Shown piece after piece: positions 2,026 to 60,072 of a stretch of 64,000 nt of DNA; the first letter of the stretch is position 1, and the number at the start of each line of letters is the position of its first letter. The notes beneath the pieces are model-generated. The model was not told the origin of the DNA. It ran no database searches and was given only the letters and a program-made list of their open reading frames with translations. The position numbers were made by a program, and so were the translations under genes. The DNA is from Streptomyces sp. NBC_01142 (GTDB lineage Bacteria > Actinomycetota > Actinomycetes > Streptomycetales > Streptomycetaceae), in assembly GCF_026341125.1 (NCBI RefSeq), contig NZ_JAPEOR010000006.1, positions 62,001-126,000 of the forward strand. Direction: 5' to 3'.

Positions 2026-2078
2026 TGACTCAATTAAGTTGACTGAAAGTGGCAGTGTAGCTTAAGCTATATGGGTCA
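2026..2078 (+). promoter_or_regulatory. family promoter P1 with inverted second half
   Basis: Rightward: TGACTCAATTAAGTTGAC ends in the -35 (TTGACT, 2039-2044); 17 nt later comes TTAAGC (or TAAGCT at 18). The downstream half CTTAAGCTATATGGGTCA is an inverted copy of the upstream box, so the region forms a dyad and may also fire leftward, weakly, into the membrane-protein gene. It serves the gene starting at 2118. Confidence 0.7.
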
Positions 2079-2117
2079 CGCGAGGGGGTTCCCTCGCTCC
2101 CCGAACCCGGGAGTTTC

Positions 2118-2825
2118 ATGATTCACCTGCCCCTTGCCCAGGATCTCGACAAGGAGATCTACAACCCGCACGAGTTCCACAACCGGGTACGCAAGGCACT
2201 CCTCACCGCCGCGGAACTGCGGACCAGCCACTTCGGCGGCGTCATCACACCGCGCGAGGTCAGCACCCTCACGCACGAGCACATGGCGCTCGCGGCCCGC
2301 CGGATCAACGAGAAGGCTCCGACGGTGCGGGATGACGGCAGCCCGACCGCCGACCTGATCGTCGAGATCCTGCTCGCCCTTCACTCGGCTCAGCCCTCCG
2401 GCCGCAGCCGCAGCGTCCACCAGCCCTCGTGGGTCGCGGACTTCACCCAGGACCTCCACCAGGCGATCACGATCGCCTTCGACGCGTTCTGGAACAGGTT
2501 CGACGGTCACCTGACCACCGACCTCATCGACAGCCTCACCCCGCGCCAGATGACGGCCATCGCACGCCGCATCAGGAACGCAGGACGGACGGCCACCCAG
2601 CTGGGCACCCACTCCGAGTTCCTCGTCCGCCATCTCCTTCGCGTCATCCACGAGGCTCAGCCGGACGCCTCCGCGACGGCGCCCACCCCCGTCACGGCGG
2701 CCCAGCTCGACGAGAGCCAGGCAACCGGTCCGACCACCCTGAACGAGGCGGTGACCGCGGCGATCGCCGCAGCGGCGCAGTCGAAGACCCCGACGATCGT
2801 GGTCCTCAGCCTCCCTCAGCCGTAG
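2118..2825 (+). CDS. hypothetical protein, 235 aa
   Basis: ATG 2118 has a GGGAG ribosome site and lies 40 bases after promoter P1. The protein is mostly helical, with two similar-looking blocks (VSTLTHEHMALAARRINEKA near residues 50-70 and LIDSLTPRQMTAIARRIRNA near 136-155), which suggests an internal duplication of a helical unit. The C-terminus is alanine/proline-rich. No enzymatic motif. A very strong terminator follows directly, so it is transcribed alone. Confidence 0.7.
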   Translation: MIHLPLAQDLDKEIYNPHEFHNRVRKALLTAAELRTSHFGGVITPREVSTLTHEHMALAARRINEKAPTVRDDGSPTADLIVEILLALHSAQPSGRSRSVHQPSWVADFTQDLHQAITIAFDAFWNRFDGHLTTDLIDSLTPRQMTAIARRIRNAGRTATQLGTHSEFLVRHLLRVIHEAQPDASATAPTPVTAAQLDESQATGPTTLNEAVTAAIAAAAQSKTPTIVVLSLPQP

Positions 2826-2829
2826 CGCC

Positions 2830-2871
2830 GCCCAGCCCAGGCGGTGCCGACCGGCACCGCCTGGGCTGGGC
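2830..2871 (+). terminator. strong hairpin terminator
   Basis: A 19-bp perfect stem (GCCCAGCCCAGGCGGTGCC and complement) with a GACC loop, five bases after the stop codon at 2825. The 267 bases from here to 3138 hold no gene that I can support. Confidence 0.85.
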
Positions 2872-3138
2872 GCGCCGCAGTACCGGTGGGTGACCTCCCC
2901 GCCCTCGGCGGAGGTGCCCCGGCTCGCCGCGTACTCGAAGTCACTCAGCCCGGACGGTCCGCGCACCCCTGCGTTCGCCGTCGAATCCCCGCCAGCCGTA
3001 TCGCGGCCAGCGGCACCCGGCGATGTACCGCGCCACCGAGACCCGGCCGCCGACCTGCCTGGACGTACCTGCCCGTCACGCCACGGGCGAGATCCCTGCA
3101 CGCGATCACAAACACCTTCACCACCGAGGAGTTCCTCC

Positions 3139-3669
3139 ATGCACACTGATCTGGAAATAGCGGTCGCCACCCTGTCTGCGGGCGAACACGTCCACGCCAC
3201 CGGAGTGGACACCCGTGGCCACCAGGTGACCCGCGCCGGCTACCTGCTCGCCGCGCCGGAGCCCAAGACCGGCCAGCACGACAACGGCAGCGGGGAGGGC
3301 TGGCTCGTTCACGTCGGCGCGCGCGAGGCCGCACCCGAGCGCTCCAACTGGGTCATGCTCTACCCAGGCAACGGAGAGATCGCCCGCACCCCCGAGCTGG
3401 ACATGAGCCGGTGGCGCAAGACCCCGCTCACGGAGACCGGGGCGAGCGCACGCACCAGGAATCTGCAGATCGTCTTCGGCGGCAAGGCCCTCCGGGGCGC
3501 GGTCGAGCCGACCGAGGAGACCCTCGTGGACGTCAGCTACAACACCGAGGGCCTGTACAACCTGAGCCTCCCGGACACCGGGGGCGCGACGCACTTCCAG
3601 TGCCGCCTGGGCACCACCATCTGGTGGGCACCGGCGTCGGCCACGCCCTCCGCCGAAACTGACGTGTGA
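3139..3669 (+). CDS. hypothetical protein, 176 aa
   Basis: ATG 3139 follows GAGGAG. First gene of a three-gene overlapping operon whose last member is the Mom-like protein. The sequence is strand-rich (HVHATGVDTRGHQVTRAGYL; GWLVHVGA; NWVMLYPG) and has no membrane segment or signal peptide. Its stop codon overlaps the next start (GTGA), so translation is probably coupled. No family recognised; the operon position suggests a role alongside DNA modification, which is inference. Confidence 0.65.
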   Translation: MHTDLEIAVATLSAGEHVHATGVDTRGHQVTRAGYLLAAPEPKTGQHDNGSGEGWLVHVGAREAAPERSNWVMLYPGNGEIARTPELDMSRWRKTPLTETGASARTRNLQIVFGGKALRGAVEPTEETLVDVSYNTEGLYNLSLPDTGGATHFQCRLGTTIWWAPASATPSAETDV

Positions 3670-3896
3670 GCGCCGTGGCAGGCCGCACCGACTTTCCCAC
3701 CCGCATCGGGGAGCCCGCGATCAAAGCTCTTGCCGCGCTGCTCCGCGGCGATGAACGCGTGGAACCCGAGCAGGCCGAGGAGCACGCGCGCCGCATCCTG
3801 GCCACGGCCGTGGGCATCGGCTACCGGCACGGCGCCGAGGCCGGCTACCTCGAGGGCCTGTCAGCGGGGGCCAAGCGCGAGCAGGAGGAGGAGTGA
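3666..3896 (+). CDS. small helical protein, 76 aa
   Basis: A GTG start overlaps the previous stop, and its own stop overlaps the next GTG (GTGA at both junctions). It is acidic and helical, with HARRILATAVGIGYRHG in the middle and a charged C-terminus. No known domain. Double coupling suggests that it is made in step with the Mom-like protein downstream. Confidence 0.65.
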   Translation: MSAVAGRTDFPTRIGEPAIKALAALLRGDERVEPEQAEEHARRILATAVGIGYRHGAEAGYLEGLSAGAKREQEEE

Positions 3897-5277: not shown

Positions 5278-7935
5278 TCAGCCCGTCTCGTCCCCGTGTC
5301 GGCGTCCGTGGAACATCATGGAGGTTCCGCCTTCGGGCAGGTACCAGCCGTCGGCGGCCATGTACGGGGGAATGTAAGCCGGGTTGGTGTCGGTGTTCCG
5401 GTTCGAGTCGGCGTTGTCCATGTCCCGGATCACTCGGCGCTGGACCTCCCGGAAGTCGTAGCCGTCGGGTCCGTCGACCTCCCAGGTGATGTCGCGCAGC
5501 TCGACTTCGCGCTCGTCCGGATCGTCTGCGGCCGCGGCTTGGATCATCGGGTGGACCTCGATTAGCCCGCCGTACAGGCACAGGACGATGAGGAGCTGGC
5601 AGACGCGGTCGGAGAACTCGCCGAAACCGTACTCCTGGCCGCAGCCGCAGGACGGGTCATGCTTGTGGACGTCGAATTCCACTTCGTAGGGCTTGCCGGT
5701 CAGCGCGTACGCGGGCAGGGCCCGGGTCTTCCCGCTCGGGCAGGGGTGCGCGGTGTCGAACAGGTTGATCCACACCTTGACGCTCGTGGCCAGGAACCCG
5801 GTGTACTCGGCTTCCAGCGCCTTCTCGAGCCGCTGGTGGGCGGCGTACGCCTTGGTGTCGACTTCCTTCCATCCCTCGCCGAGCCGGTGCCCTGCCAGGT
5901 GCAGGAACTGGTTCGTCAGCAGGGACAGTTCATCGAGCGTGGGCTGTGCCCCGTCCGCCGAACCCGGGTTCGTGCTCGTCTCGTGCACCGTCGTTTCGTC
6001 CTCACGGGCAGCGGCGCGATCGGAGGGCCAGACGTCGGTGAGTTCGTGACCCGGTTCGGCCCGGCGGATCAGGGCGACGTCGGACAGCGTCAGGCCGAAC
6101 ACGGAGCGGCCGTCCGACACCTGCAGCCACGGCACATCGCGGGGGCCGGTGCTGTGCGCGTTCACGCCGATGATGTCGACGCAGATCTGTGCGGGCTCGG
6201 GGAACTGCGCACCGGGCCCGAACCACAAGGCCAGGACCCTGGTCTTCACGCCGAGGAACTGCTGCGCCTGGCGCACCGCGTGGACGGCATGGTCGGAGGG
6301 AATCCACCAGCCGTTGCGGGTCCACGCCTGCTCGGCATCGACCGCCTCGCATCCGTCGAGGTCGTAGAGGGCCTCGGCCACCTGCTGGCGGGCTTCGTCC
6401 CGCACCGCCCGGCACAAGTCGTTCGCCGGCGCCGTACTGCCCAGGCCCTGGGCATCGCCACCGCTTGCCGCTGCCCCGTCCCAGATGGGAACACCGGGCG
6501 CAGCGAACGGGATCGTGCCCAGGACGACCGCGACCTGGTTCGCGCGGTCGATGCCGTGGCTGAGGTGCGCATCGGTGGAGGACGCGGCGGGGCGGCTGTC
6601 GTCGTCCTGCGCCCCGTACCGGCGGCGCGGATCGTCGGGTTCTTCTTCGAGGCCGTGCCCGAGGAGCATCGGGAACAGCTGGTGCTTGAGGAGTACTTCG
6701 AGCCCGTACTCGATGTTCGAGGCGTCCCCGGTGACAGCGAACGGCTTCATGGTCTGCTCGAGGCCGTCACTCAAGGAGTGGACGACGTGGAAGGGGGTGC
6801 GGTGGCGGTCGCGCTCAAAGCCCTGGGTCGTGAAGGCCACCGCGAACGCGATGGCGGCAGGCCACAGGCTGTCCCTCCAGCGCACTCCGGACTCGCGGCA
6901 CAGGGCCTTCGCCGCGGCGCGGGCGGCGGGATCGTGCCGGTCGACGGCGTCGACGAGTGCGGCCACCGTCGCGCCGGCGCCCAGGTCCTTGAACGCCTCG
7001 TGCCGGTGAGCGGGCGGCGGGAGCCAGATCCAGGACCGCTCCAGCGGCTCACCCCAGCGCTCCATGACAAACGGCCAGCCGCCGCGCTTCTTCAGCTCGC
7101 GGTCGAGCCGGGCCCCCAGGTCGGGGCCGCAGGACAGGGCGAGGACGGCTGCGACAGCGTCCCATCCCGCCGGCGCGGCCAGGTCGTCGTGAAGGAGCCG
7201 GTCGAGGTTGACCGCTAGGTACGGCAGGTCGGTGCGATATCCCTGGTCGCCGTCGAAGATGCAGGCAGGGCAGACGGGTTCGGCACTGCGGGAGTTCTTC
7301 AGCAGGTGGTGCTCGGGGTAGCGGTCCCCGCAGATCGGGCACGGCGTGGTGGACCACTCCTCCGCGCCCCGGACCCGCCCGAGTCGAGTTTCTCCGAGCT
7401 TGGCGTCCATGCGGCGCGCGGTGACGCGGACGGATTCGGTGGAGCAGTCCGCGACGCCGTCCTCGAAGTCCTCGGTGGTGGCGTTGCCCGACGGGCACAT
7501 CGACATCAGATACAGCGGCCGGGTCAGGTCTGATTCCTCCGGATCATCCGGATCGAGTTCCTCGCCGTCGTCGTTGTCGTCTGCACGTCCCACGGACAGG
7601 TTCAGGCCTGCGACGGGTCCCGCATAAGAGGTGAGGCCGAAGGCCTCCAGATCCGGCTCATGGTGACCGGCGCCCCATCCCAGGAGACGGAACTCCGAGA
7701 GCAGGGCCTTGAGATAGTCCCTGGCGAGCAGGGGGCCCGGGGCAGGTTCGGCCGCCGCCAGGTCGGCGAGGATCCGGACGGCCTCCGCGCGGCCGGCCGC
7801 GTCCAGGACCGAGGGGAGCAGGTTGCGCTCGGCGGCGTCGATGACGCGCTCCAGAGCCCGCTGGTAGCCGCAGCCGGTCGCTTTGTTGAGGGCCCGTGCG
7901 ATCTGCTGGCGGTTGGTGATGTTCTTCGATGACAA
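5278..7935 (-). CDS. large hypothetical protein with zinc motif, 885 aa
   Basis: TTG 7935 is preceded by AGGAG at five bases. Residues 13-31 (ARALNKATGCGYQRALERV), then a helix and LLGWGAGHH near 84-92, closely resemble the N-terminus of the 336-residue protein at 50.7 kb, so the two share an N-terminal module. Residues 199-225 carry CPIC...CPAC, a likely zinc ribbon, and a further HDPSCGCG lies near the C-terminus. The middle is helical, with no Walker, nuclease or polymerase motif that I can identify. It ends just after a bidirectional terminator. Length and single-gene transcription suggest an important plasmid protein, but its role is unknown. Confidence 0.7.
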   Translation of the reverse strand: MSSKNITNRQQIARALNKATGCGYQRALERVIDAAERNLLPSVLDAAGRAEAVRILADLAAAEPAPGPLLARDYLKALLSEFRLLGWGAGHHEPDLEAFGLTSYAGPVAGLNLSVGRADDNDDGEELDPDDPEESDLTRPLYLMSMCPSGNATTEDFEDGVADCSTESVRVTARRMDAKLGETRLGRVRGAEEWSTTPCPICGDRYPEHHLLKNSRSAEPVCPACIFDGDQGYRTDLPYLAVNLDRLLHDDLAAPAGWDAVAAVLALSCGPDLGARLDRELKKRGGWPFVMERWGEPLERSWIWLPPPAHRHEAFKDLGAGATVAALVDAVDRHDPAARAAAKALCRESGVRWRDSLWPAAIAFAVAFTTQGFERDRHRTPFHVVHSLSDGLEQTMKPFAVTGDASNIEYGLEVLLKHQLFPMLLGHGLEEEPDDPRRRYGAQDDDSRPAASSTDAHLSHGIDRANQVAVVLGTIPFAAPGVPIWDGAAASGGDAQGLGSTAPANDLCRAVRDEARQQVAEALYDLDGCEAVDAEQAWTRNGWWIPSDHAVHAVRQAQQFLGVKTRVLALWFGPGAQFPEPAQICVDIIGVNAHSTGPRDVPWLQVSDGRSVFGLTLSDVALIRRAEPGHELTDVWPSDRAAAREDETTVHETSTNPGSADGAQPTLDELSLLTNQFLHLAGHRLGEGWKEVDTKAYAAHQRLEKALEAEYTGFLATSVKVWINLFDTAHPCPSGKTRALPAYALTGKPYEVEFDVHKHDPSCGCGQEYGFGEFSDRVCQLLIVLCLYGGLIEVHPMIQAAAADDPDEREVELRDITWEVDGPDGYDFREVQRRVIRDMDNADSNRNTDTNPAYIPPYMAADGWYLPEGGTSMMFHGRRHGDETG

Positions 7936-11353: not shown

Positions 11354-11959
11354 CTAAGCGGTGACCAGGGCGTGCAGTTCGTTGACACGGCGCTCGGCGT
11401 CGGTCACGGCGATGAGCGCGCGGATCGCCGACTCGCGACGCGCGCTGAGCTGGGCGGTGTAGGTCTTCAGGAAGACCTGTGCGGCCTGCCGCCGGGCGGC
11501 GGTGGTCAGCTCGTCGAGGTCCTGGCGCTCGCGCCAGGTATCGAGGACGGCGTCGAGGACGGCCCGTGCGTGCCGGTGAGTGCGAGGCGGAAGCCATTCG
11601 GGGCGTCCGGTCTTGCCCCGGCGAAGGGGCCGGAAGTCCGGGGCGTTCTCCCAGGCGATGCGGACCGGTCCGGTGAGCAGGATGTTGTTCACCGACAGCG
11701 GCCGAGTTTCGTGCAGGGCGAAGGCGGGTGCGAACTTGTCGGGATTGATGAGGAGTTCGGCGGGCCCCTGGTCGGGCATGGTGGGGTCGTCCGCCGAGGC
11801 GGCGGGGGAGAGCATCACGCAGCCGCGTACGTGTGGGCCGTGGAGCCGGTACAGGACGCTTCCGGAGCGGACGTCGGTGCGCGCGGCGATGTCGAGCCGG
11901 CCGTAGGGACCGAGGTCGCGGGCGGTGGTGTGTTCCTCGCGAAGTCCTGAATCAGGCAC
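11354..11959 (-). CDS. HVRG-motif protein, 201 aa
   Basis: GTG 11959 follows GGAGCCGAC. First gene of the P2 operon. The segment VLYRLHGPHVRGCVML near residues 36-51, followed by a helical region with RHARAVLDAVLDTW, resembles VRYVVRAPHVRGTFVV and RRIEAVILAIVTHW in the 421-residue protein at 52.8-54.1 kb, so the two are probably paralogues. The C-terminal third is a long charged helix. Function unknown; pairing with the next operon's paralogue suggests a duplicated gene block. Confidence 0.65.
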   Translation of the reverse strand: MPDSGLREEHTTARDLGPYGRLDIAARTDVRSGSVLYRLHGPHVRGCVMLSPAASADDPTMPDQGPAELLINPDKFAPAFALHETRPLSVNNILLTGPVRIAWENAPDFRPLRRGKTGRPEWLPPRTHRHARAVLDAVLDTWRERQDLDELTTAARRQAAQVFLKTYTAQLSARRESAIRALIAVTDAERRVNELHALVTA

Positions 11960-12114: not shown

Positions 12115-12166
12115 TGACGCTCTTAGTTTAATCCAAAGCCACTCTTTGATCAAGTTAATAGGGTCA
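12115..12166 (-). promoter_or_regulatory. family promoter P2, with dyad
   Basis: Leftward: TGACCCTATTAACTTGAT overlaps the -35 TTGATC (12148-12153), spacer 17, -10 TAAACT (12125-12130). The -10 is followed by AAGAGCGTCA, an inverted copy of the upstream box, so the promoter sits inside a dyad of about 52 bp. Drives the 9.9-11.96 kb operon. Confidence 0.8.
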
Positions 12167-13599: not shown

Positions 13600-14085
13600 T
13601 CAGACGGTCTGTGCCAGGACCTGCCGGTCCTCGCGGAAGCGCTGGATCAGCCGCAGACGCGGGCCGCCCTGCAGGAGCGCCGGCAGCTCTGCAGCCGCCG
13701 GCTCGCCGTCAGCGACCCGGCGGGCGTAGGCGATGGCCTCCTGGAAGGCGCTCAGGTACGAGCGAAGGTCCTCGGCCGCGCGTCGCCGCTGCCGCCGCTC
13801 CCGGCGGGTCCAGGCCTCGCCGATGCGCTGCTCGTTGCGCTCGTGGACGCGCTCGAGCAGGAAGCGACCTCCGACGAGAGAGGCCAGGGCCCGGCTTCCG
13901 GCGACGACGCTGCCGGCGCCGGAGGCGCTCAGCGGCAGGACGTCGGCGGCCGCGCGGTCGACGGAGAAGGCGATCGCCTTCCAGGCGTCGTCTTGCAGAA
14001 GGGCGTGGCTGGCCCGCCCGGGAAGGCTGGGTCGCTTCAGCGTGAACCGGATCCGGGGCAGGAGCGATATGGCGGACGAGCTCAT
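13600..14085 (-). CDS. arginine-rich helical protein, 161 aa
   Basis: ATG 14085 follows AAAGGAC. First gene of the P3 operon. The N-terminal half has beta-type sequence (ISLLPRIRFTLKRP); residues 85-160 form long charged helices (RRERRQRRRAAEDLRSYL). A nucleic-acid contact is possible from charge alone; no family recognised. Confidence 0.6.
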   Translation of the reverse strand: MSSSAISLLPRIRFTLKRPSLPGRASHALLQDDAWKAIAFSVDRAAADVLPLSASGAGSVVAGSRALASLVGGRFLLERVHERNEQRIGEAWTRRERRQRRRAAEDLRSYLSAFQEAIAYARRVADGEPAAAELPALLQGGPRLRLIQRFREDRQVLAQTV

Positions 14086-14223
14086 GGTCGAAGTCCTTTC
14101 GCGAGGGCGGCCGGATCTGCTCGGACGGCAAGCGGCCGAAGGCGGTCGGATGCGTCCCAAGGGCAGGCGGCTGGGGGTGGGGTGCGTGGAGCGGGTCGCG
14201 GAGACGATCAGGCGACGCTGAAA

Positions 14224-14265
14224 AGTTAACGCACAACTCAATTATGCGTCAAATTATTCGGGTCG
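14224..14265 (-). promoter_or_regulatory. family promoter P3
   Basis: Leftward: CGACCCGAATAATTTGAC ending in -35 TTGACG (14247-14252), spacer 17, -10 TTAACT (14224-14229). Starts the 12.2-14.1 kb operon. A weak inverted half (GCGTCG) follows the -10. Confidence 0.75.
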
Positions 14266-14615: not shown

Positions 14616-14897
14616 ATGAACCGCAGTGAGCTGGTGGCCCAGCTGGCCGATCGCGCCGAGGTGACCCGCAAGGACGCCGACGCCGTGCTGGCCGCTCTCG
14701 CCGAGACCGTCGGCGACGTCGTCGCCAAGGGCGACGAGAAGGTCGCCATCCCCGGCTTCCTCACCTTCGAGCGCACCCACCGTGCCGCCCGCGAAGGCCG
14801 CAACCCCGCCTCGGGCGAGCCGATGACCATCCCCGCCGGCTACAGCGTGAAGGTCTCCGCGGGCTCGAAGCTCAAGGACGCCGCCAAGGGCCAGTAG
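14616..14897 (+). CDS. hup: HU-family DNA-binding protein
   Basis: 93 residues, the standard HU length. Two N-terminal helices (NRSELVAQLADRAEV; RKDADAVLAALAETV), the GFLTFERTHRAAREGRNP segment with the RNP tip of the DNA-binding arm at 62-64, and IPAGYSVKVSAGSKLK. HU dimers bend and compact DNA. ATG 14616 follows GGAGAG. It is transcribed alone, with a strong terminator after it, directly upstream of the telomere operon; a plasmid-encoded HU could act in origin or telomere architecture, which is inference. Confidence 0.95.
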   Translation: MNRSELVAQLADRAEVTRKDADAVLAALAETVGDVVAKGDEKVAIPGFLTFERTHRAAREGRNPASGEPMTIPAGYSVKVSAGSKLKDAAKGQ

Positions 14898-22336: not shown

Positions 22337-22786
22337 TCAGGTCGCGGTGTCGCCGGGTACGTACGGGCCGCGGAACTGCGCGGGAATCTCGCTGGGCGGC
22401 GTGCTGGGGTCGGGCGCATCGGCCGGGCCGCGGTCGGAGTGGCTCCAGTAGGACAGGGCGAGGGAATCGACCGAGGAGTCGCGCTCCTCGCGGGTGGCCC
22501 AGGCTTCGACGCTCACGTCGCCCTCCGTGTAGACCGCGAGCGCGTAGCACAGCTCGAACGGGGAGTTGTAGAGGGCGACCGCCTGGTAGGGCCAGTTGCC
22601 GAGGTCCCACCCATCGGTGCCCCAGTCCCGGATGCCGGTCCATCCCCAGGGCTCAATGTGCGCCAGCCACGTGTCGGCGTCACCTCCGTCGTGGAAGTCC
22701 TCCGGGAGGAACGGAAGAAGCTCCAAGGGAACAGGGCCGGAGGTGAACGGGCGGTCGTCGCTGGAGGAGCGCGAGGTGGCAGTCAA
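22337..22786 (-). CDS. hypothetical protein, 149 aa
   Basis: TTG 22786 has AGGAAGG five bases upstream. A more upstream ATG at 22846 overlaps the -10 of promoter P4 and cannot be the start. Tryptophan-rich acidic protein (HIEPWGWTGIRDWGTDGWDLGNW near the centre, given here only as a landmark of repeated G-W pairs) with a hydrophobic helix LCYALAVYT. First gene after P4. Function unknown. Confidence 0.6.
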   Translation of the reverse strand: MTATSRSSSDDRPFTSGPVPLELLPFLPEDFHDGGDADTWLAHIEPWGWTGIRDWGTDGWDLGNWPYQAVALYNSPFELCYALAVYTEGDVSVEAWATREERDSSVDSLALSYWSHSDRGPADAPDPSTPPSEIPAQFRGPYVPGDTAT

Positions 22787-22834
22787 GGCAGCCTTCCTGG
22801 TCCGGGGGGAGGGCCAAGGCAGGCCCATATCTCC

Positions 22835-22876
22835 AATGTACTCCATCCTGCCATCAGAATCAAATTAATAGGGTCA
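22835..22876 (-). promoter_or_regulatory. family promoter P4
   Basis: Leftward: TGACCCTATTAATTTGAT overlapping -35 TTGATT (22858-22863), spacer 17, -10 TACATT (22835-22840). Confidence 0.85.
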
Positions 22877-22970: not shown

Positions 22971-23012
22971 TGACCCCAATAAGTTGACGCACACCCCCGA
23001 TGTGGGTACTGT
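22971..23012 (+). promoter_or_regulatory. family promoter P5
   Basis: Rightward: TGACCCCAATAAGTTGAC ending in -35 TTGACG (22984-22989), spacer 17, -10 TACTGT (23007-23012). P4 and P5 are back to back and about 95 bp apart. Confidence 0.8.
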
Positions 23013-30557: not shown

Positions 30558-30950
30558 TTAGACGGTCGGGATGTAGGAGGCGTTGGGGAGCTCGGTGCCC
30601 GCCTGGCTGGCGTACTTGCCGAAGTAGCGCGCGATCTCGCGGGCGTTGTCCTTGGCGCTGTTGGGGCCGGCGATCGAGGCGGGGACGTGGAAGACGGTGA
30701 ACTCCCGGCTCGCCTCGTAGCCCTTCCTCTCCTTCTCGCGGGACTTCTTCACCACCTCGTTCAGCGCTTCCTTTGCGGTGATGCCCGTACGCAGCAGTCC
30801 AATCTGGCCGGACTGACCGCGGCTTCCGTGCAGGCCGAGCGCGAGCGGCTCGGGCCCGGTGACGACGATGAGGCGGTAGAACTTGTCGCTGCTGCCGCTG
30901 TCGTCGTGGAGTTCCCAGCCGAAGCCGGGTACGTCGTCGCTGGAAGTCAA
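30558..30950 (-). CDS. WGR-domain protein, 130 aa
   Basis: TTG 30950 has GGAGGG eight bases upstream. Residues 15-75 (DKFYRLIVVTGPEPLAL; GSRGQSGQIGLLRTGITAKEA; KKSREKERKGYE) match the WGR pattern: a strand pair, a G-x-x-G-x turn, then a helix ending in K-x-K-GY. WGR domains occur in PARPs and MolR-like proteins and bind nucleic acid. The C-terminal 45 residues are separate. First gene of the MoxR-VWA operon, so it may guide the complex to nucleic acid; that is inference. Confidence 0.7.
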   Translation of the reverse strand: MTSSDDVPGFGWELHDDSGSSDKFYRLIVVTGPEPLALGLHGSRGQSGQIGLLRTGITAKEALNEVVKKSREKERKGYEASREFTVFHVPASIAGPNSAKDNAREIARYFGKYASQAGTELPNASYIPTV

Positions 30951-31055: not shown

Positions 31056-31097
31056 AGTGTACTCCAAGTGAGATTATGCGTCAACGTAAAAGGGTCA
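31056..31097 (-). promoter_or_regulatory. family promoter P6
   Basis: Leftward: TGACCCTTTTACGTTGAC ending in -35 TTGACG (31079-31084), spacer 17, -10 TACACT (31056-31061). Drives WGR, MoxR and VWA genes. Confidence 0.85.
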
Positions 31098-34338: not shown

Positions 34339-34380
34339 AAAGTACGACACAGAGGGGTATGCGTCAAATTTATTACGTCA
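34339..34380 (-). promoter_or_regulatory. family promoter P7
   Basis: Leftward: TGACGTAATAAATTTGAC ending in -35 TTGACG (34362-34367), spacer 17, -10 TACTTT (34339-34344). Confidence 0.8.
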
Positions 34381-34405: not shown

Positions 34406-34447
34406 TGACGCTATTAAGTTGACATAGAACCGCGTGGGGAGTAAATT
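34406..34447 (+). promoter_or_regulatory. family promoter P8
   Basis: Rightward: TGACGCTATTAAGTTGAC ending in -35 TTGACA (34419-34424), spacer 17, -10 TAAATT (34442-34447). P7 and P8 are divergent, with their boxes only about 25 bp apart. Confidence 0.85.
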
Positions 34448-34701: not shown

Positions 34702-35268
34702 CTGACCACCACCTCAACCGCACCGCTCGCAGTGGTCGTCACGAGGGCAGACGGAGCAGTCACCCGGATCGGCCCCATCCTCACCCCGGACGTAGCCGAC
34801 GCGATCCACACCTCGCTGACCCGCTACACCACCATCCCGGAACAGGCCGCCGCGACCGCCGAGATCGTCCCCTTCGCCCCGGAGATGCTTCACCTGCCGC
34901 TCCTGGACGCCGAAGCCGGGACGCTCCTCGCGCTGATGGACGACGGCGAGCAGGGAGTCCAGGCCCCCTTCCCTAACGTTTGGGACCGCCTCGTCGCCCA
35001 GCACGGACTCGGCACGGCCGACACCGTCTGGAAGGAGGCGCTTGCCGCCCGCCAGACCCACCGCCACCACACCCCGACGGCCGGCGCACAGCGCGCTTCC
35101 CGCGCGCAGGCTGACGACCGCTTTGACCACGCGCTTCGGGAGCTGCTCCTGGCGAGCATCGGCCCCGGAGGCATCTCGCCCGCCGCCTTGGACGACACCC
35201 TGGCCGGCATCCGGCGCCTGGCAGACGACTGGGCGCGGTCGCGCCAGCTCCCCAGCCCCGGCCGCTGA
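34702..35268 (+). CDS. hypothetical protein, 188 aa, probable CTG start
   Basis: GGAGAGGCC leads directly to CTG 34702 (TTTSTAPLAVVV...), and no ATG/GTG/TTG lies at a suitable place in the frame. Strand-rich N-terminus (LAVVVTRADGAVTRIGPIL) and helical C-terminus. Second gene of the P8 unit. Unrecognised. Confidence 0.6.
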   Translation: MTTTSTAPLAVVVTRADGAVTRIGPILTPDVADAIHTSLTRYTTIPEQAAATAEIVPFAPEMLHLPLLDAEAGTLLALMDDGEQGVQAPFPNVWDRLVAQHGLGTADTVWKEALAARQTHRHHTPTAGAQRASRAQADDRFDHALRELLLASIGPGGISPAALDDTLAGIRRLADDWARSRQLPSPGR

Positions 35269-37597: not shown

Positions 37598-37639
37598 TGA
37601 CGCAATTAAGTTGATCTGGATCGCCTGGTGAGTTAAATT
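37598..37639 (+). promoter_or_regulatory. family promoter P10
   Basis: Rightward: TGACGCAATTAAGTTGAT overlapping -35 TTGATC (37611-37616), spacer 17, -10 TAAATT (37634-37639). Serves the DUF4314 gene. Confidence 0.8.
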
Positions 37640-42484: not shown

Positions 42485-43033
42485 TCACAGGCCGGGAAGC
42501 GGGTCCTGGCCGTCGGGTCCGCTTCCGGAGCCGAGCGTGAGCGAGCCGCTCTGGCGCGGCGTAGCGACCGTGAGAGCCGGGCCGGTGGGCGGCCGGGCGT
42601 CGTCCTTCGGGCAGGGGCACCGGCACCACCACACGCACGGCTCGCCGCCGGGGCGGGGGATGAGGGTGGCGACGGTCCGGCCGTGCTGGTTGTGTACGGG
42701 TTCGGCGTTGTCGCAGGCGTCGGGGCGGCCCTTCTGTCGGTGCATGCACCACTCGCAGCGTCCGGCCAGACAGTTCCAGCAGGTGCCCCTCTCGCACAAG
42801 GCCCAGCGCCAGAATCCGAAGGCGTATCCGTCGTCGATCCGGTGGAAGAACGCCGGCCAGACGTGCTCGCGGACCCGGGCGCCCTCGTCCTCGGTCATCG
42901 GGGACGGGTTGGGCACCGGATCGACAAGGCCGAGGTGGAGCATGCGGTGCAGATTGAGGGTCTGCACCCCGCGCACGTCTTCGAGCTCAGCCTCGGTGAG
43001 CTGGCGCTGAGGACGCCGGACGGGACGGGTCAC
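42485..43033 (-). CDS. cysteine-rich protein, 182 aa
   Basis: GTG 43033 overlaps the DUF262 stop. Residues about 80-105 hold CERGTCWNCLAGRCEWC, followed by CDNAEPVH and CVWWCRCPCPKDD, at least ten cysteines suited to several zinc ions. The first 70 residues are helical. Coupled to the DUF262 gene. Family not recognised. Confidence 0.65.
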   Translation of the reverse strand: MTRPVRRPQRQLTEAELEDVRGVQTLNLHRMLHLGLVDPVPNPSPMTEDEGARVREHVWPAFFHRIDDGYAFGFWRWALCERGTCWNCLAGRCEWCMHRQKGRPDACDNAEPVHNQHGRTVATLIPRPGGEPCVWWCRCPCPKDDARPPTGPALTVATPRQSGSLTLGSGSGPDGQDPLPGL

Positions 43034-43644
43034 CGGGCCGCCCTGGGGGAGCCCGTCGACGCGACGCGGGCCGCGTTGTCCATGTCGCCGTCGCTCTGCG
43101 GGGTGCCGCCACCGTTGACCAGGAGGTAGATCTCGGCTTCCTCGGCAACCGTGGCGACCTTGGCCATCGCGATGGACAGGTGCGCGCGGTTGGCGAACTT
43201 CAGCCGGGCCGGCTTGCTCAAGCCCGAGAGGCGCACGTAGGGGCCGTCGTCGGTCTCCTCGGTGACGGTCACGTCGTCGGCGGGGAACCAGGTTGCGGGG
43301 ACGGCCAGTTCATCGTCGTACCACAGGTAGGCCGCGGTGATGCGCTGCTTGCCATCGATGCACGCGTACATCGCCTCGCCGCGGTCCGTCGGGTCGTACC
43401 CGTTGGCTTCCTTCCACTCGGGTGTGGTGCGGTCGTTCAGGATCACCACACCGGTCGGCGTCCCCGTCAGCCACGACCGGATGAGCGCGATGCGCTGGTC
43501 GCCGCTCCATACGTCACCGCGCTGGTAGTCCGGATCGAGATCGAGCCCGAAGGTGTCGCGGAAGCTCGTGCTGATCTCGCGGGGCGAGCGGTCCGAGGTG
43601 CGCAGGTTGTGGTGCTCAAGCGGGCGACTGGTCTGACGAGTCAT
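43030..43644 (-). CDS. stand-alone DUF262 (ParB-like NTPase fold) protein
   Basis: 204 residues. DPDYQRGDVWSGDQRIALIRSWL (38-60, shown here as key positions D38-Q41-R42-G43), IDGKQR (96-101) and LLVNGGGTPQ (near 173) are the DUF262 core, as in GmrSD-type modification-dependent nucleases and other defence proteins. The DUF1524 HNH nuclease normally fused to it is absent; the next gene encodes a cysteine-rich protein instead. DUF262 hydrolyses NTPs in characterised relatives. Transcribed from P11. Confidence 0.85.
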   Translation of the reverse strand: MTRQTSRPLEHHNLRTSDRSPREISTSFRDTFGLDLDPDYQRGDVWSGDQRIALIRSWLTGTPTGVVILNDRTTPEWKEANGYDPTDRGEAMYACIDGKQRITAAYLWYDDELAVPATWFPADDVTVTEETDDGPYVRLSGLSKPARLKFANRAHLSIAMAKVATVAEEAEIYLLVNGGGTPQSDGDMDNAARVASTGSPRAAR

Positions 43645-43794: not shown

Positions 43795-43836
43795 AATGTA
43801 CTTCTATCCGGGGGTTTAGTCAAAATTATTGGGTCG
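43795..43836 (-). promoter_or_regulatory. family promoter P11
   Basis: Leftward: CGACCCAATAATTTTGAC ending in -35 TTGACT (43818-43823), spacer 17, -10 TACATT (43795-43800). Confidence 0.85.
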
Positions 43837-47915: not shown

Positions 47916-48242
47916 TTAGGACGGATCGGCGGAGAGGCTCCGCAGGACCGGCAGGATGCCTGACCGGTCGATGGTCTGGGGCAGGACGAGCGTGCTCTGG
48001 CCCGCGTCGATCGCCTTGGACACGATCTCCGACAGCAGGCCCGGCGCGATGGGGGCGGAGACCTCGGCGATGAGGCCGGATCCCTGGTCCGGGACGATGA
48101 GAACCCAGTGCCCCTTCGCGATCACCCGCTGGACGAAGTCGAGGGCCCGCCACAGGTCATGACCCTGCGGGCAGATCAGGTCTTCCACGATTCCGTCCTC
48201 GTAGACCCGGTGGATGGTGATCTCGACCGGCAACTGCTCCAT
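47916..48242 (-). CDS. hypothetical protein, 108 aa
   Basis: ATG 48242 with GAGGAG upstream (GTG 48245 is possible). Compact alpha/beta: EITIHRVYEDGIVEDLIC, GHWVLIVPDQ, STLVLPQTID. First gene after P12. Unrecognised. Confidence 0.65.
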   Translation of the reverse strand: MEQLPVEITIHRVYEDGIVEDLICPQGHDLWRALDFVQRVIAKGHWVLIVPDQGSGLIAEVSAPIAPGLLSEIVSKAIDAGQSTLVLPQTIDRSGILPVLRSLSADPS

Positions 48243-48296: not shown

Positions 48297-48338
48297 AATG
48301 TACTCATATAGCGATTGTGCGTCAAATTAAAAGGGTCA
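48297..48338 (-). promoter_or_regulatory. family promoter P12
   Basis: Leftward: TGACCCTTTTAATTTGAC ending in -35 TTGACG (48320-48325), spacer 17, -10 TACATT (48297-48302). Close to the family consensus at every position. Confidence 0.9.
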
Positions 48339-48360: not shown

Positions 48361-48402
48361 TGACCCTTTTATTTTGACTAACGTCACCTGTCTGCGTACA
48401 TT
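48361..48402 (+). promoter_or_regulatory. family promoter P13
   Basis: Rightward: TGACCCTTTTATTTTGAC ending in -35 TTGACT (48374-48379), spacer 17, -10 TACATT (48397-48402). P12 and P13 are a clean divergent pair, which fixes the orientation of the whole family. Confidence 0.9.
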
Positions 48403-48457
48403 AGGTGTTCTGCCGGTGCTCATCGCGCCGGGGCCTGACCCCTACGAAGGAGCCAAC

Positions 48458-48817
48458 CTGCTGTACGCCGACGAGAGCAGCGCCGACGAGTTGGAGGCCG
48501 TTCTCACTCAGCGCCTGGACGTCGATCTGGAGATGGCGCAGATGAACGCCGAGGCCGATGCGTGGCACGCGGTACGTGACCGCGGGTTCTGCAACCACGG
48601 ATCCGCTATCGGCTACGGCCACCCGGCGGTGCACGAGGTGCAGAGGCTCCTCAAGCCCGGCCAGCTGATCTGCACCGCCGGATGCGACACCGTCTTCGCC
48701 GACGAGGAGGACTGGTACGCCCAACTCGACGACCCGATGCTCAACCCCGTGCCGCTGCCCGGCCGTTCCACTGCCGGCGAGAGGCCCGCTCGCGCGGCCT
48801 ACGGCTCCGGCATCTGA
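48458..48817 (+). CDS. hypothetical protein, 119 aa, probable CTG start
   Basis: GAAGGAG is followed at six bases by CTG 48458 (LYADESSADELEAV). No usual start codon lies between P13 and the conserved-looking body with a ribosome site. Acidic N-terminus; CNHGSAIGYGHPAVHEV...CTAGCDTVF suggests a metal site. First gene of the P13 unit. Confidence 0.6.
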   Translation: MLYADESSADELEAVLTQRLDVDLEMAQMNAEADAWHAVRDRGFCNHGSAIGYGHPAVHEVQRLLKPGQLICTAGCDTVFADEEDWYAQLDDPMLNPVPLPGRSTAGERPARAAYGSGI

Positions 48818-55015: not shown

Positions 55016-55131
55016 GGTGAACTCCCTTACTGAGCAGCAGGGGTCGGGTGGGACGGCCGGCGGACTCCTTCGACTGGGTCGGCCGAGGACGACGTCCGGC
55101 GGCGCACCGAATCGGGAGGTGGGGGACAGGG

Positions 55132-55202
55132 CGGGGGCGGCAGGGATCGAACCTGCGCTGCCGGCTTTGGAGACCGTCGCTCTGCCTCTGAGCTACACCC
55201 CC
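55132..55202 (-). tRNA. tRNA-Trp (CCA)
   Basis: Acceptor GGGGGTG with CGCCCCC, D-arm GCTC...GAGC, anticodon loop CTCCAAA (CCA), T-arm GCAGG TTCGATC CCTGC. The first anticodon-stem pair is A-G. The 3' end reads GCCT, so CCA is not encoded. Last tRNA of the leftward array from P14. Confidence 0.85.
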
Positions 55203-55276
55203 TGGGGTTGGCGATCGCGCCCCGGAGTTCGGGACCATCGCCTCTGGGCACCGGTGGACGGCGCGACAGCGGTAGG

Positions 55277-55348
55277 TGCTCCTGCAGGGACTCGAACCCC
55301 GATCTCCGGATCCGTAGTCCGGTGTCCTTTCCGTTGAACGACAGGAGC
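55277..55348 (-). tRNA. tRNA-Arg (ACG)
   Basis: Acceptor GCTCCTG with CAGGAGC, anticodon stem CCGGA/TCCGG, loop CTACGGA, T-arm GGGG TTCGAGT CCC. Its acceptor and T-arm are nearly identical to those of the Asp and Glu(TTC) tRNAs of the other array. Confidence 0.85.
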
Positions 55349-55372
55349 TGCGCGCGTTCCGCGCAAACTGCG

Positions 55373-55445
55373 TACCCTCGGCGGGATTTGAACCCGCGAT
55401 CTCCCGGTTGAGAGCCGGGCGAGATATCCAGTCCTCCACGAGGGC
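55373..55445 (-). tRNA. tRNA-Glu (CTC)
   Basis: Acceptor GCCCTCG with CGAGGGT, anticodon stem CCCGG/CCGGG, loop CTCTCAA, T-arm GCGGG TTCAAAT CCCGC. A close copy lies at 60568. Confidence 0.8.
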
Positions 55446-55457
55446 ATGTCCGGCGTC

Positions 55458-55515
55458 GGCCCGGGGATCAGATCAGGTTGGGTCCGCGAGGACCCGAGCA
55501 TCACCTTCCCCGGCC
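55458..55515 (-). ncRNA. structured RNA element C, array 1
   Basis: Outer stem GGCCGGGGA with TCCCCGGGCC, inner AGGT/ACCT pair, hairpin GGGTCC TCGC GGACCC, and GATCTGATC before the closing strand. A homologous element with the same stems and GATCCGATC lies at 60494 in array 2. Confidence 0.65.
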
Positions 55516-55524
55516 GACGGCCGG

Positions 55525-55560
55525 TCCGCTTGCGGCTCCTCCCCAGAAGCCGCGAGCGGA
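55525..55560 (-). ncRNA. structured RNA hairpin B, array 1
   Basis: TCCGCT and GCGGCT paired with AGCCGC and AGCGGA, apex CTGGGGAGG. The counterpart at 60449 keeps the GGCTCC apex and its complement with changed outer bases. Confidence 0.6.
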
Positions 55561-55561
55561 G

Positions 55562-55611
55562 CGTGTCAGCGAGATCGGATCCGCGGGGAACTTCACCTGC
55601 TTGCTGACACG
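55562..55611 (-). ncRNA. structured RNA element A, array 1
   Basis: Nine-pair outer stem CGTGTCAGC/GCTGACACG; in array 2 the same position reads CGTGCCAGC/GCTGGCACG, a compensatory U-A to C-G change. The interior holds AAGCAGGTGAAGTTCC. Confidence 0.7.
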
Positions 55612-55614
55612 TCG

Positions 55615-55680
55615 TGAACGGGCGGGAATCGAACCCACGACCACCCCAACCGGGGGGCTCTGCCACTGAGCTACCGCTCC
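55615..55680 (-). ncRNA. tRNA-like RNA without anticodon loop
   Basis: 66 nt: acceptor GGAGCGG/CCGTTC, D-arm GCTC AGTGGCA GAGC, a short middle arm CCCC...GGGG capped by about four to five bases (CGGTT), and a normal T-arm GTGGG TTCGATT CCCGC. Three to four bases are missing from the middle arm, so no anticodon can be presented. The counterpart in array 2 (60328) has the same length and shape. Confidence 0.6.
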
Positions 55681-55926: not shown

Positions 55927-55979
55927 TGACTCTTATAAATTTACGCCACTCGCGCCCATGTGTCAAATTAAAAGGGTCA
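55927..55979 (-). promoter_or_regulatory. family promoter P14 for RNA array 1, with dyad
   Basis: Leftward: TGACCCTTTTAATTTGAC ending in -35 TTGACA (55961-55966), spacer 17, -10 TAAATT (55938-55943), continuing TTATAAGAGTCA as an inverted half-site. Confidence 0.9.
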
Positions 55980-56441: not shown

Positions 56442-56669
56442 TCAGTCCTCGGCTGCGTCGCCGCCACCATCACCGCGGTCTTCGCAGTCGGGGCAGTCGT
56501 CGTCGCAGCGCTCCTGGATGCCGAGGCTGTGGACGCGGCAGCGCATGCAGGGTTCGCGGGTGAACGTGACCTCGCCGTCCTCGTACGTCTCGCCGTTGTA
56601 GTCGTCGACGGCGGTGCCCTGCGGTTCGTGGCAGTGGCCGCAGTTGACTTCTCCCTCGCGGTACAGCAT
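56442..56669 (-). CDS. zinc-ribbon-like protein, 75 aa
   Basis: ATG 56669 overlaps the previous stop (TGATG). CGHC at about residues 10-13, CMRC near 41-44 and CDDDCPDC near 56-63: enough cysteines for two zinc sites. Strongly acidic C-terminus. Confidence 0.65.
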   Translation of the reverse strand: MLYREGEVNCGHCHEPQGTAVDDYNGETYEDGEVTFTREPCMRCRVHSLGIQERCDDDCPDCEDRGDGGGDAAED

Positions 56670-57322
56670 CAAGCCGCCTCGGCAGCACGGCGGCTCTGCA
56701 GGTCACGCACGACGGCGGCGACGTATTCGGGGTCGCTGGTGTCGTCGTCGACGAACTCGGCGTGCACGCGGGCGACCATCTCGGCGATGTCCTCGACGTC
56801 CGCCTCGAAGTCGGACCGGTCCCATACGTCGTAGGCGCACCCGAAGAACCCCTGCGCGTACGCGTCGGCCGCGTTGCGGGCATGGCCGGTCCAGAAATAC
56901 CGCGACCAGTCATCAGAGCGGATGCCGTTGATGTCGTACTCGTCGCCGGTGATCTTCACGCCCTTGAGCGCGTAGCCGCGCGTCCAGGCGTCGGCGTCGG
57001 TCTCGCCGATGAAGTCGGAAGACACCCACATCACCGAGTACATGGGCCGGTTCCACGCCTTGTACTGGTCGTCGGTGGCGAGGTAGCGGTGACGGCCCTT
57101 GCGGGCGCTACGGGCCGTGACACCGACCTTGCTCCACTCGCGGGCGGACAAGTTGACCAGGCGACCCTCGAATTCGAGGTGCACGATGGCCTTGTGGGCG
57201 GCGCTCCACTCCTCAGCATTGGTGTCGTCGGCGATGGCGTTGGCGATGTCCCAGTACGTCACGGGCGCGTCCTGGGCGCTCATCCATGCGTAGGCTGCCT
57301 CGGCGGGCGTGAAGTTGGGCAT
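56669..57322 (-). CDS. winged-helix-like protein, 217 aa
   Basis: ATG 57322. Residues 1-60 (TPAEAAYAWMSAQDAPVTYW; IANAIADDTNAEEWSAAHKA; LEFEGRLVNLS) look like a winged helix; the rest is acidic alpha/beta (FTGHARNAADAYAQGFFG region). Downstream of the P15 tRNA-like gene and coupled to the zinc-ribbon protein. Confidence 0.6.
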   Translation of the reverse strand: MPNFTPAEAAYAWMSAQDAPVTYWDIANAIADDTNAEEWSAAHKAIVHLEFEGRLVNLSAREWSKVGVTARSARKGRHRYLATDDQYKAWNRPMYSVMWVSSDFIGETDADAWTRGYALKGVKITGDEYDINGIRSDDWSRYFWTGHARNAADAYAQGFFGCAYDVWDRSDFEADVEDIAEMVARVHAEFVDDDTSDPEYVAAVVRDLQSRRAAEAA

Positions 57323-57494: not shown

Positions 57495-57566
57495 CGGCCC
57501 GAGGGGAATTGCACCCCTGACCGTCCCCCGGCGTGGGGGCCGCTCTACTGACTGAGCTACGGGCCT
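57495..57566 (-). ncRNA. tRNA-like RNA, five-base middle loop
   Basis: 72 nt: acceptor AGGCCCG/CGGGCCG (first pair A-G), D-arm GCTC...GAGC, middle arm CCCCC ACGCC GGGGG, variable CGGTC, T-arm AGGGG TGCAATT CCCCT. Read as a 7-base loop (CACGCCG) the anticodon would be CGC (Ala), but base 33 is A instead of U and a fifth C-G pair shrinks the loop. Either an odd tRNA-Ala or, more likely, a member of the tRNA-like set. Confidence 0.6.
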
Positions 57567-57628: not shown

Positions 57629-57681
57629 TGACGCTTCTAATTTTACCCATGACGACAAGGTATGTCAATCTAAAAGGGTCA
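57629..57681 (-). promoter_or_regulatory. family promoter P15 with dyad
   Basis: Leftward: TGACCCTTTTAGATTGAC ending in -35 TTGACA (57663-57668 region), spacer 17, -10 TAAAAT (57640-57645), then TAGAAGCGTCA as inverted half. Drives the tRNA-like gene at 57495 and possibly the three genes beyond. Confidence 0.9.
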
Positions 57682-58317: not shown

Positions 58318-58549
58318 CGGATACCAGCGTGAGGCAGGCGTGGCCCGATCTGATGGCGCCGTGCGCCGACGTGGACGCCCGCCACGTCGACCTCGGCCTT
58401 GCGCTACCTGGGTTCTGCCAGACCTGCCCGAGACCGGGCGAAGGCCTCGCGGCCGTCCAGGGCGGGCGACAATGACGCCCGGCCCCACTCGCACCGGAAG
58501 CGAGCAGCTGCTCGCCCCTTCAGCTACGCCCCGCAACGGGAGGAACCGC

Positions 58550-58906
58550 ATGGGACGCTGCATCATCAAGGCGACACACGACGAAGACCTCTACTTGGAG
58601 TGGTCCTCGGTCGTCGACGCGTGCACCAGGGTCGGCACCCGTGCCGAGTTCCTCGCCTCGAGGCACCGGCAGGATGCCCTGGACCGTGCGGACCGGACCG
58701 GCACCTCTGACCGCGTCGCGCAGCTCGGCGGCTGGGATGATGAGTCCCTCGGCGTCGGGACAACTGAACACCGGCACTACGAAGGGCCTCTGATCCTCCA
58801 TCGTGCCGATCTCGCGGCATTCGCTCGGCACCTCGCCGCCGGCGACTCCCGACAGGCCGAGAACCTGCTGATCCCCGACCCCGAGCCCTGGGGCGCGACA
58901 GCCTGA
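58550..58906 (+). CDS. hypothetical protein, 118 aa
   Basis: ATG 58550 follows GGGAGGA. N-terminal CIIKATHDEDLYLEWSSVVD suggests a beta hairpin and helix; LILHRADLAAFARHLAAGD is a later helix. Unrecognised. The 232 bases before it hold no supported gene. Confidence 0.6.
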   Translation: MGRCIIKATHDEDLYLEWSSVVDACTRVGTRAEFLASRHRQDALDRADRTGTSDRVAQLGGWDDESLGVGTTEHRHYEGPLILHRADLAAFARHLAAGDSRQAENLLIPDPEPWGATA

Positions 58907-58975
58907 CCACGTCCGAGGACCGGCCGCGCGCCCTGGTCCGCCACTGGCGGGCTACCCCCGTGGCGGAAGGTCCGT

Positions 58976-59656
58976 CTAGGTGTCCTGCCCGATCCCGAGG
59001 GCCTCGGCGACTTCGTCGAAGACCTCGGGATCGATGGGCGGCCGGGCGCCATCGGCCGGCCAGTCCAGGTCGACGAGGATCGGGGTGTAAGGGGTCGAGC
59101 GAGGTTCAGTGGCGGGCAGGTCGAACAGGAGAGTGCGCTGCCCGCTCGTTTCGGCGAGGAGCCTGGCGAGGTCGCCCGCGTCCGTACGGGTCTTGCCCGC
59201 GCCTCCGGGCCGGATGTGCTTCTCGCTCAGGAGCCGCCTCGCCAAGTTCTCCAGGTCCGGGATCCGGCCAGCGGCGCTGCGCGGGGCGGTCAGGGCGCGG
59301 GCCTGGTCAGAGGTCATGCCGGTGGCCGCGACGAGGCCGCGTACGGAGTGGTCGGGCAGCGGGCCCGCAGCGAGTTCGTCGAGACGTTCGGTGGCAGAGT
59401 TGCCGGGCTCGAGGCCAAGGAGTTCCATGGCCCGGTGCCGCTGGAGGCCGGCCGCCCCGGCGACGCGCTGGATGTAGCCCTCAAGTCGTTCGGCGGGGCG
59501 GGGCAGGGGAGCAGCGGGGATCCGGGCCGGGAGGCGGGGCTGACTGCCGGAGCGGGCGGCGACAGCAGCTCGGGCCTGGTCCAGGGTGACGCCGGGGTGC
59601 GCCCGCTTGTACGCACGTACGGCGCGGTCGAGTTCCCGGTTGCGGGGGTTGGTCAT
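58976..59656 (-). CDS. TniQ-like HTH protein, 226 aa
   Basis: ATG 59656. After a helical N-terminus, residues about 50-130 (LPRPAERLEGYIQRVAGAAG; RAMELLGL; RGLVAATGMTSDQARALT) follow the TniQ/HTH pattern of targeting proteins in Tn7-like elements. No transposase, TniB or end repeats were found, so a role as an ordinary DNA-binding protein is as likely. Single leftward gene. Confidence 0.5.
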   Translation of the reverse strand: MTNPRNRELDRAVRAYKRAHPGVTLDQARAAVAARSGSQPRLPARIPAAPLPRPAERLEGYIQRVAGAAGLQRHRAMELLGLEPGNSATERLDELAAGPLPDHSVRGLVAATGMTSDQARALTAPRSAAGRIPDLENLARRLLSEKHIRPGGAGKTRTDAGDLARLLAETSGQRTLLFDLPATEPRSTPYTPILVDLDWPADGARPPIDPEVFDEVAEALGIGQDT

Positions 59657-60019
59657 GGCGTCTCGCGTCCTTGTTCGGCCTGCTGCCCCACACGCGTCGG
59701 CCGTCCAGGAGGAGGGCATGACGAGATCGCTCGCGCGAGTCTCAGACGTCTGCGGTCCCCTGCGGCGGTGTGGGCGTCGAGGTGGTGGTGGACCGGGCGC
59801 GGCGCGGTTGCCCTTGGAACACACGCCATCGTAGCGGCTCGGCTGACGCCGTGAATGCAGGTTGCCGAGGCCCGAGGCCCGCCCCGGTTGCTGCTCTCGA
59901 GCCGACGGGGGCTGCGATGTCCGTGGTTGCCGCCGATGGGCTTCGTGGCCGCGACGTGGGCCTCCTCGCCACCCGCGCCGGCGGCCGGTGGCGCGCACAA
60001 GGTTGCTACTCCATCATGT
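59657..60019. other. 363-nt gap before RNA array 2
   Basis: No supported gene, hairpin or family promoter seen apart from P16 at its right edge. Confidence 0.4.
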
Positions 60020-60072
60020 TGACCCTTAAAAGTTGACACAACTCCCATGCATGCATTAATATAAAAGGGTCA
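60020..60072 (+). promoter_or_regulatory. family promoter P16 for RNA array 2, with dyad
   Basis: Rightward: TGACCCTTAAAAGTTGAC ending in -35 TTGACA (60033-60038), spacer 17, TTAATA (or TAATAT at 18), continuing TAAAAGGGTCA as an inverted half-site. Confidence 0.9.

Follow-up and report, generated by a model that had tools for sequence, protein, structure and literature searches.

The operators of phage P1 C1 are numerous and asymmetric, lie near -35 regions over one element, and are in some cases paired in inverted orientation. Bacillus plasmid p576 and other clade II plasmids of the pLS20 family carry a repressor-controlled establishment regulon, Regp576 / EGeRS2, as described in excerpts of PMC8708921. 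Here we analyzed a stretch of 64,000 nucleotides of Streptomyces sp. NBC_01142 (hereafter the window), corresponding to bases 62001-126000 of the 127,635-bp contig C6 in a genome of 10.1 Mb and 15 contigs, in which a short box is fused to the -35 element of fifteen promoters. The layout is of the EGeRS2 type, with a common operator beside sigma-A-type promoters of several operons, placed upstream of the -35 element and at some sites also downstream of the predicted start. Among the papers listed by searches of the open-licence literature, none concerned this box or its regulon.

A plasmid-restricted promoter family with one or two arms

A 42-column matrix built from the fifteen sites proposed between positions 2026 and 60072 recovered all of them, with scores of 40.6-65.2 bits in sample and 25.7-61.5 bits in leave-one-out analyses, compared with a maximum of 8.0 bits in 30 first-order Markov windows of equal length. 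The consensus as first printed, with 17 free bases, had no exact match because 18 bases follow TTGAC, i.e., a TTGACn hexamer plus 17; the sites were recovered once mismatches were allowed. The hexamer spacing, given as exactly 17 nucleotides in the original prediction, has this value at 12 of the 15 sites and is 18 at the other three. Similarly, the box was said to begin 14 bases before TTGA: it starts 13 bases before TTGAC, and 14 is the distance between the two TGAC words. The three divergent pairs (22876/22971, 34380/34406 and 48338/48361) are present. Most sites do point at an operon start, as claimed for all of them; an exception is 37598(+), which has no called same-strand open reading frame (ORF) within 4 kb and only a mechanical ORF of 102 aa.

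Two layouts were distinguished. In class A, a single upstream box is arranged as TGACSC, six AT-rich bases, one base, TTGAC, 18 bases, and then a -10 such as TAMATT. The 162,192-bp contig C5 bears the same boxes as C6; in many of its class A sites the -10 is GTACATTAGTGA, and in some the core is kept and the box is poor. In class B, overlooked in the original prediction, the box is repeated in inverted orientation at the far end, near the predicted +1, and the whole forms a dyad of 51-53 bp. This class comprises six of the window sites (2026, 12166, 14265, 55979, 57681 and 60020). The proposal that tRNA arrays are among the targets holds for 55979(-) and 60020(+), both of class B, which lead towards called tRNA genes, but the tRNA-like stretch facing 57681(-) was not called. 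With TGAC at the -35, TANNNT at the -10 and suitable spacing, these promoters agree with the HrdB-type (housekeeping) Streptomyces consensus, TGAC / TANNNT, taken from excerpts of PMC6742748.

A sequence-only model was built from 42 sites of C5, C6 and NBC_00239 and used to score 150 of 157 first-look candidates. At a threshold of E<=1 it had 34 matches in the entire genome, all on C5 or C6 (15 in the window and 19 on C5); 26 of these were training sites and 8 were not. The box is thus not equally frequent in the chromosome. A strict pattern gave ten hits in this genome, again all on C5 and C6, its reversed control gave none, and among 392 Streptomyces genomes it was found in two, this one included. 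The hit in the second genome (G028:C190) is a direct repeat of TTGACnCATAAAAC with a 14-nt period, not this promoter layout, and looks unrelated. We regard the existence of the family and its restriction to the plasmid as near certain.

Window bases 1-25000 matched 32 plasmid records, all from Streptomyces, and the best of these was the 312-kb linear NZ_CP108096.1 of NBC_00239. Between C5 plus C6 (288 predicted genes) and that plasmid (313) there were 213 reciprocal best hits, mostly in collinear stretches, suggesting that C5 and C6 are parts of a single linear plasmid. The sites are conserved at orthologous operons in NBC_00239, and oriented, asymmetric copies are numerous among them. The first 62 kb of C6, C5 at 1-44 kb and ~52-120 kb, and NBC_00239 at 69-190 kb are free of sites; the orthologs located at C5 52-120 kb correspond to genes whose annotations read ParA, FtsK and conjugal transfer protein. 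A phage origin was discarded, as window bases 39001-64000, the part searched, had no match in the phage collection.

Concerted box switching and a candidate reader

Related plasmids were scanned with the -35/-10 part of the matrix alone, so that the upstream box was outside the query. A box emerged that was consistent within each plasmid and different between plasmids, while the -35 and -10 changed little. Its types are TGACSCTTTTAA, TGACGCGTAWAAC (NBC_01304 and NBC_01601, the latter with less strict conservation of the first three bases), TGACATGTAAKAA (MMBL 11-1), TGACTCGTWTAAT (NBC_00637), TGACGCTTAAGAC (pFRL6) and TGACTCTTAAG (pFRL3 and genome G256); the type of our plasmid also occurs in S. 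halstedii and NBC_00239. The fixed -35/-10 pattern had 17 matches in NBC_00637, of which three are duplicates located in the terminal repeats, and pFRL6 had 36 arm matches at 22 places, with both arms at 14. An 11-base box core is present in 44 copies in pFRL3, which was examined solely because it encodes an ortholog (32% identity) of the helix-turn-helix (HTH) protein described below. Coverage was partial for NBC_00637 (399,551 of 559,551 bases), pFRL3 (396,858 of 436,858) and pKP058 (140,000 of 293,342); pFRL4 and the S. globisporus plasmid were covered by the profile scan alone, and the 27-kb plasmid of MMBL 11-1 was left out. The profile scan detects only relatives of our own box type, and its zeros do not denote box-free plasmids, because MMBL 11-1, pFRL6 and pFRL3 scored 0 yet have other box types.

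Between our plasmid and NBC_01304 or NBC_01601, divergence reached 0.32-0.86 bit at box columns -9, -7 and -5 and 0.39-0.50 at -1, but at most 0.09 bit in the TTGAC columns, where the difference from MMBL 11-1 was up to 0.16. The -10 is imperfectly constant: one column differs by 0.24-0.30 in the comparison with NBC_01304 and NBC_01601, and the +21 column by 0.33 for NBC_01601. A concerted change of the box at tens of sites belonging to separate operons, with the -35 and -10 nearly constant, is best explained by a dedicated trans-acting factor. Such a factor, already invoked in the original prediction, very probably exists and is encoded by the plasmid, and the switching supports it better than does the conservation from which it was first deduced. 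Within what comparison of sequences can tell, this concerted switching is our main new result, and the two-arm dyad layout is also new relative to that prediction.

The candidate reader is a tandem MerR/BldC-like HTH protein encoded at C5 48618-49310, outside the window. Its likeness to tandem MerR/BldC-type HTH proteins is weak: Foldseek returned no match at E<=0.001, Pfam no match, and PHROGs two weak ones. All nine of the box-rich plasmids read encode this protein, which is absent from NBC_00073, the single box-free plasmid read. Operator type and ortholog vary together over these nine plasmids, and in the alignment the HTH segments cluster according to box type. With a score of +8.9, the gene ranked 7th of 70 core genes for placing NBC_01304 and NBC_01601 together, in agreement with the box. 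The promoter site of the candidate gene itself is conserved in most relatives, and it falls in the lower half by score in all five plasmids ranked (23rd of 41, 29th of 37, 25th of 34, 21st of 27 and 26th of 31). Next to this gene, the promoter of an AAA gene was seen by eye to bear the downstream arm alone, of the local box type in all seven plasmids shown. These observations point to the tandem HTH protein as the predicted reader of the arm, an assignment that we find reasonably likely.

NBC_00073 has a different, small promoter-like family, TTGCC ... TGTGTAC, at 842, 257884, 256684 and 75973, of which two places lie near both ends of the plasmid and one is internal.

Sites in the window and genes of the regulon

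Genes were called with a simple custom codon-statistics script, not taken from the reference annotation. Sites were cleaned by dropping one-base-shift duplicates, which reduced the sets of our plasmid from 41 to 35, NBC_00239 from 37 to 36, S. halstedii from 34 to 33 and NBC_01304 from 27 to 26, and left NBC_01601 (31) and MMBL 11-1 (29, the lowest-scoring rows of which look doubtful) unaltered; the weaker-strand row of each palindrome had been removed earlier. All 190 cleaned sites of the six plasmids lie outside called genes, and 159 also have a same-strand start within 300 nt, compared with 8-11% of random places. The proportions are 28/35 in our plasmid, 31/36 in NBC_00239, 27/33 in S. halstedii, 24/26 in NBC_01304, 29/31 in NBC_01601 and 20/29 in MMBL 11-1.

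The class B promoter-operator at 2026..2078 (+), kept at the orthologous place in NBC_00239, precedes ORF 2118-2825 (+), with divergent ORF 1099-1890 (-) on its other side. Those at 12115..12166 (-) and 14213..14265 (-) precede ORFs 11354-11959 (-) and 13600-14085 (-), the latter site being flanked on the other side by an HU-like gene (14616-14897 (+), PF00216). In the first divergent class A pair, 22835..22876 (-) precedes ORF 22337-22828 (-), and 428 nt separate the expected start of 22971..23012 (+) from ORF 23448-26060 (+), which has a RING-type domain (PF14447). Class A site 31056..31097 (-) precedes a WGR ORF (30558-30950 (-), PF05406) and the genes after it. In the second pair, 34339..34380 (-) faces an RNA ligase ORF (33513-34325 (-), PF09414) and 34406..34447 (+) faces ORF 34732-35268 (+). 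Of the remaining class A sites, that without a called ORF close by occupies 37598..37639 (+), 43795..43836 (-) precedes a GmrSD_N ORF (43030-43644 (-), PF03235), and the third pair consists of 48297..48338 (-), the top-scoring site with 65.2 bits, before ORF 47916-48242 (-), and 48361..48402 (+), before ORF 48416-48817 (+).

Class B site 55927..55979 (-) lies before a tRNA stretch at 55130..55680 (-), with genes for tRNA-Trp, -Arg and -Glu and one Rfam-only call (55614-55680) according to ARAGORN and Rfam. At 60020..60072 (+), the class B site precedes tRNA-Glu and tRNA-Asp genes at 60568..60733 (+), the first called tRNA being ~500 nt away; a further tRNA-Glu lies at 61489-61561. Class B site 57629..57681 (-) is followed by the tRNA-like stretch at ~57500-57566 and, 310 nt on, by ORF 56669-57322 (-). 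This stretch (57500-57566 (-)), recognized by eye, has an odd anticodon arm and is also present in NBC_00239 downstream of 17407(+); within the window, neither ARAGORN nor Rfam called it.

Members with recognizable domains encode RNA ligase, GmrSD_N, WGR, DUF932 and LPD29 proteins; to these are added the tRNA genes, and the rest mostly have no recognized domain. For ten class A genes close to the end of C5, Pfam gave a single match, LPD29, and PADLOC gave weak AAA-type, methylase and NsnA matches for three of ten window proteins. The members may be establishment or antidefence genes.

Two further observations were made. First, of 154 class A sites considered across six plasmids, 33 have a leader hairpin with the loop (A/G)nGCAAG, located 17-23 nt downstream of the -10; the expectation per leader was 0.004. 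The hairpins occur at C5 ~130-157 kb, at NBC_00239 286-304 kb, and in relatives, with none at the 27 class A sites of MMBL 11-1; the second stem pair varies between C-G, T-A, G-C and T-G, which suggests a kept structure. Second, the DNA of ORF 5278-7935 (-), 885 aa, matches several otherwise distant Streptomyces plasmids, including pFRL4, NBC_00637, NBC_00073 and S. xanthophaeus.

Proposed mechanism, its rivals and known systems

We lean slightly towards a scheme in which the plasmid HTH protein reads the arm and represses near-consensus promoters of early genes, quiet in the resident plasmid and firing on entry. The promoters would be of the near-consensus housekeeping type (TTGAC / TAnnnT) on a linear plasmid with a conjugation-type gene block, and each would be fused to an operator arm composed of TGAC, a plasmid-type-specific core and an AT-rich tail abutting the -35. 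Class A promoters would have only the upstream arm, whereas in class B promoters another arm, in inverted orientation, would cover the start site. The protein encoded at C5 48618-49310 would repress all of them, its own promoter less tightly. The start-site arms, the AAA promoter with a start-site arm only, the flanking of promoters on two sides and the near-consensus -35 and -10 favor a repressor among the kinds of factor between which the original prediction did not choose (activator, repressor or sigma accessory factor), and repression is in our opinion the likely mode of regulation. The regulon, with the RNA ligase, DUF932, WGR and GmrSD_N genes, tRNA genes and many small genes without known role, would be silent as long as the plasmid is resident and be expressed once the DNA reaches a cell devoid of the repressor; for this expression on plasmid entry, we consider the balance to be level.

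Alternatively, an activator encoded by the plasmid might bind the box, contact the host sigma factor next to the -35 and switch the regulon on. Activators contacting sigma region 4 usually sit beside the -35, which the upstream arm abuts, and the candidate resembles MerR/BldC-type domains, a group that includes activators. However, near-consensus -35 and -10 elements require none, and an arm covers the start site in class B and pFRL6 promoters and is the sole arm of the AAA promoter, which makes activation unlikely.

Somewhat less likely still is that another plasmid protein reads the box, be it WhiB, LexA, GntR, HU or another shared DNA-binding candidate. WhiB-type regulators act next to the -35, a WhiB gene is present on C6, and the annotation of the NBC_00239 plasmid includes lexA. 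A co-occurrence test left 25 proteins shared by every one of the other eight box-rich plasmids, among them C5_92385, C6_15552 and C5_34950. Nevertheless, these three grouped NBC_01304 with NBC_01601 at scores of -8.7, -2.2 and -4.5, and WhiB (-22.2), LexA (-10.4), GntR (-39.2), HU (+1.1) and the triple-HTH protein C5_129547 (+1.3) were all outside the 25; the scores thus range from -39.2 to +1.3, versus +8.9 for the HTH gene. WhiB, LexA and GntR were rejected as readers. The triple-HTH protein (C5 129547-130524 (-)), with three HTH-like segments, is kept in NBC_00239, S. halstedii, NBC_01304, NBC_01601 and MMBL 11-1.

A reading in which the AT-rich block serves as an UP element and a strong promoter has simply been copied around the plasmid with no dedicated factor is very improbable. 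The six bases directly upstream of the -35 are indeed AT-rich in a replicon of 70% G+C, but exact G and C bases are kept in the box (TGACGCGTAWAAC in two plasmids), the box is consistent within each plasmid and different between plasmids, and an inverted arm also lies downstream of the -10. Copying alone is insufficient, because orthologous promoters in different genes switch alike, and the UP-element-only reading was dropped. Most improbable of all, the palindromes would be recombination, partition or replication sites and not promoters: dyads of 51-53 bp in many copies per replicon, one of them adjoining an integrase operon in NBC_00239, would fit, but none of the cleaned sites falls within a called gene, most are followed by a start on the same strand, promoter spacing is kept, and many copies are asymmetric and oriented.

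If the HTH protein is the repressor, a single switch protein made by the plasmid may control numerous plasmid genes together, including some for tRNAs. The data provide a regulon map, with a named candidate master regulator, for a little-studied class of giant linear plasmids. Related plasmids with the same promoters and switched operator types constitute a natural experiment in which regulator-operator co-evolution is directly testable, and the tie between plasmid tRNA genes and a regulated program makes the antidefence idea for such arrays testable. A more tentative extension, which we rate somewhat below the scheme itself, is that giant linear Streptomyces plasmids have immunity types like those of phages. 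In each plasmid, a single tandem winged-HTH repressor would co-evolve with some 20-45 arms fused to housekeeping-type promoters, and an incoming plasmid would have its early genes silenced by a resident of the same type and not by one of another, which would set entry and coexistence, with at least six operator types.

The sites resemble phage P1 C1 operators in being many and asymmetric, with some inverted pairs, a likeness of general description and not of sequence; protein and site are different. As in giant linear plasmids of Mycobacterium avium (excerpts of PMC12803027), tRNA clusters are found on linear plasmids of >300 kb, for which a possible antidefence function is discussed there; those arrays have 26-27 tRNA genes, in contrast with few per stretch here, and the word 'promoter' does not occur in the main text of that paper. 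As with the stoperators of cluster A mycobacteriophages (PMC6550527, PMC9283540, in the parts used), many asymmetric sites would be served by one repressor with two DNA-binding domains, here the candidate, and site and repressor co-vary between relatives. Stoperators, however, are 13 bp long and also stop elongation (PMC6550527), whereas the arm is locked to the -35 or the start site, and the element here is a plasmid.

A close parallel is p576, again according to excerpts of PMC8708921. In both cases, strong promoters of several operons have an operator directly upstream of the -35, and sometimes a second just downstream of the start, which is predicted here. The p576 repressor is plasmid-coded and controls itself less strictly, as we propose for the HTH candidate; repression is proven for p576 and would apply here by analogy. 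p576 has four such regions, compared with 26-36 sites per plasmid in our cleaned sets; its repressor is a ribbon-helix-helix protein acting on a dual-heptamer operator, compared with a tandem HTH candidate and an inverted second arm here. Unlike in p576, tRNA genes belong to the regulon here and operator types differ between plasmids.

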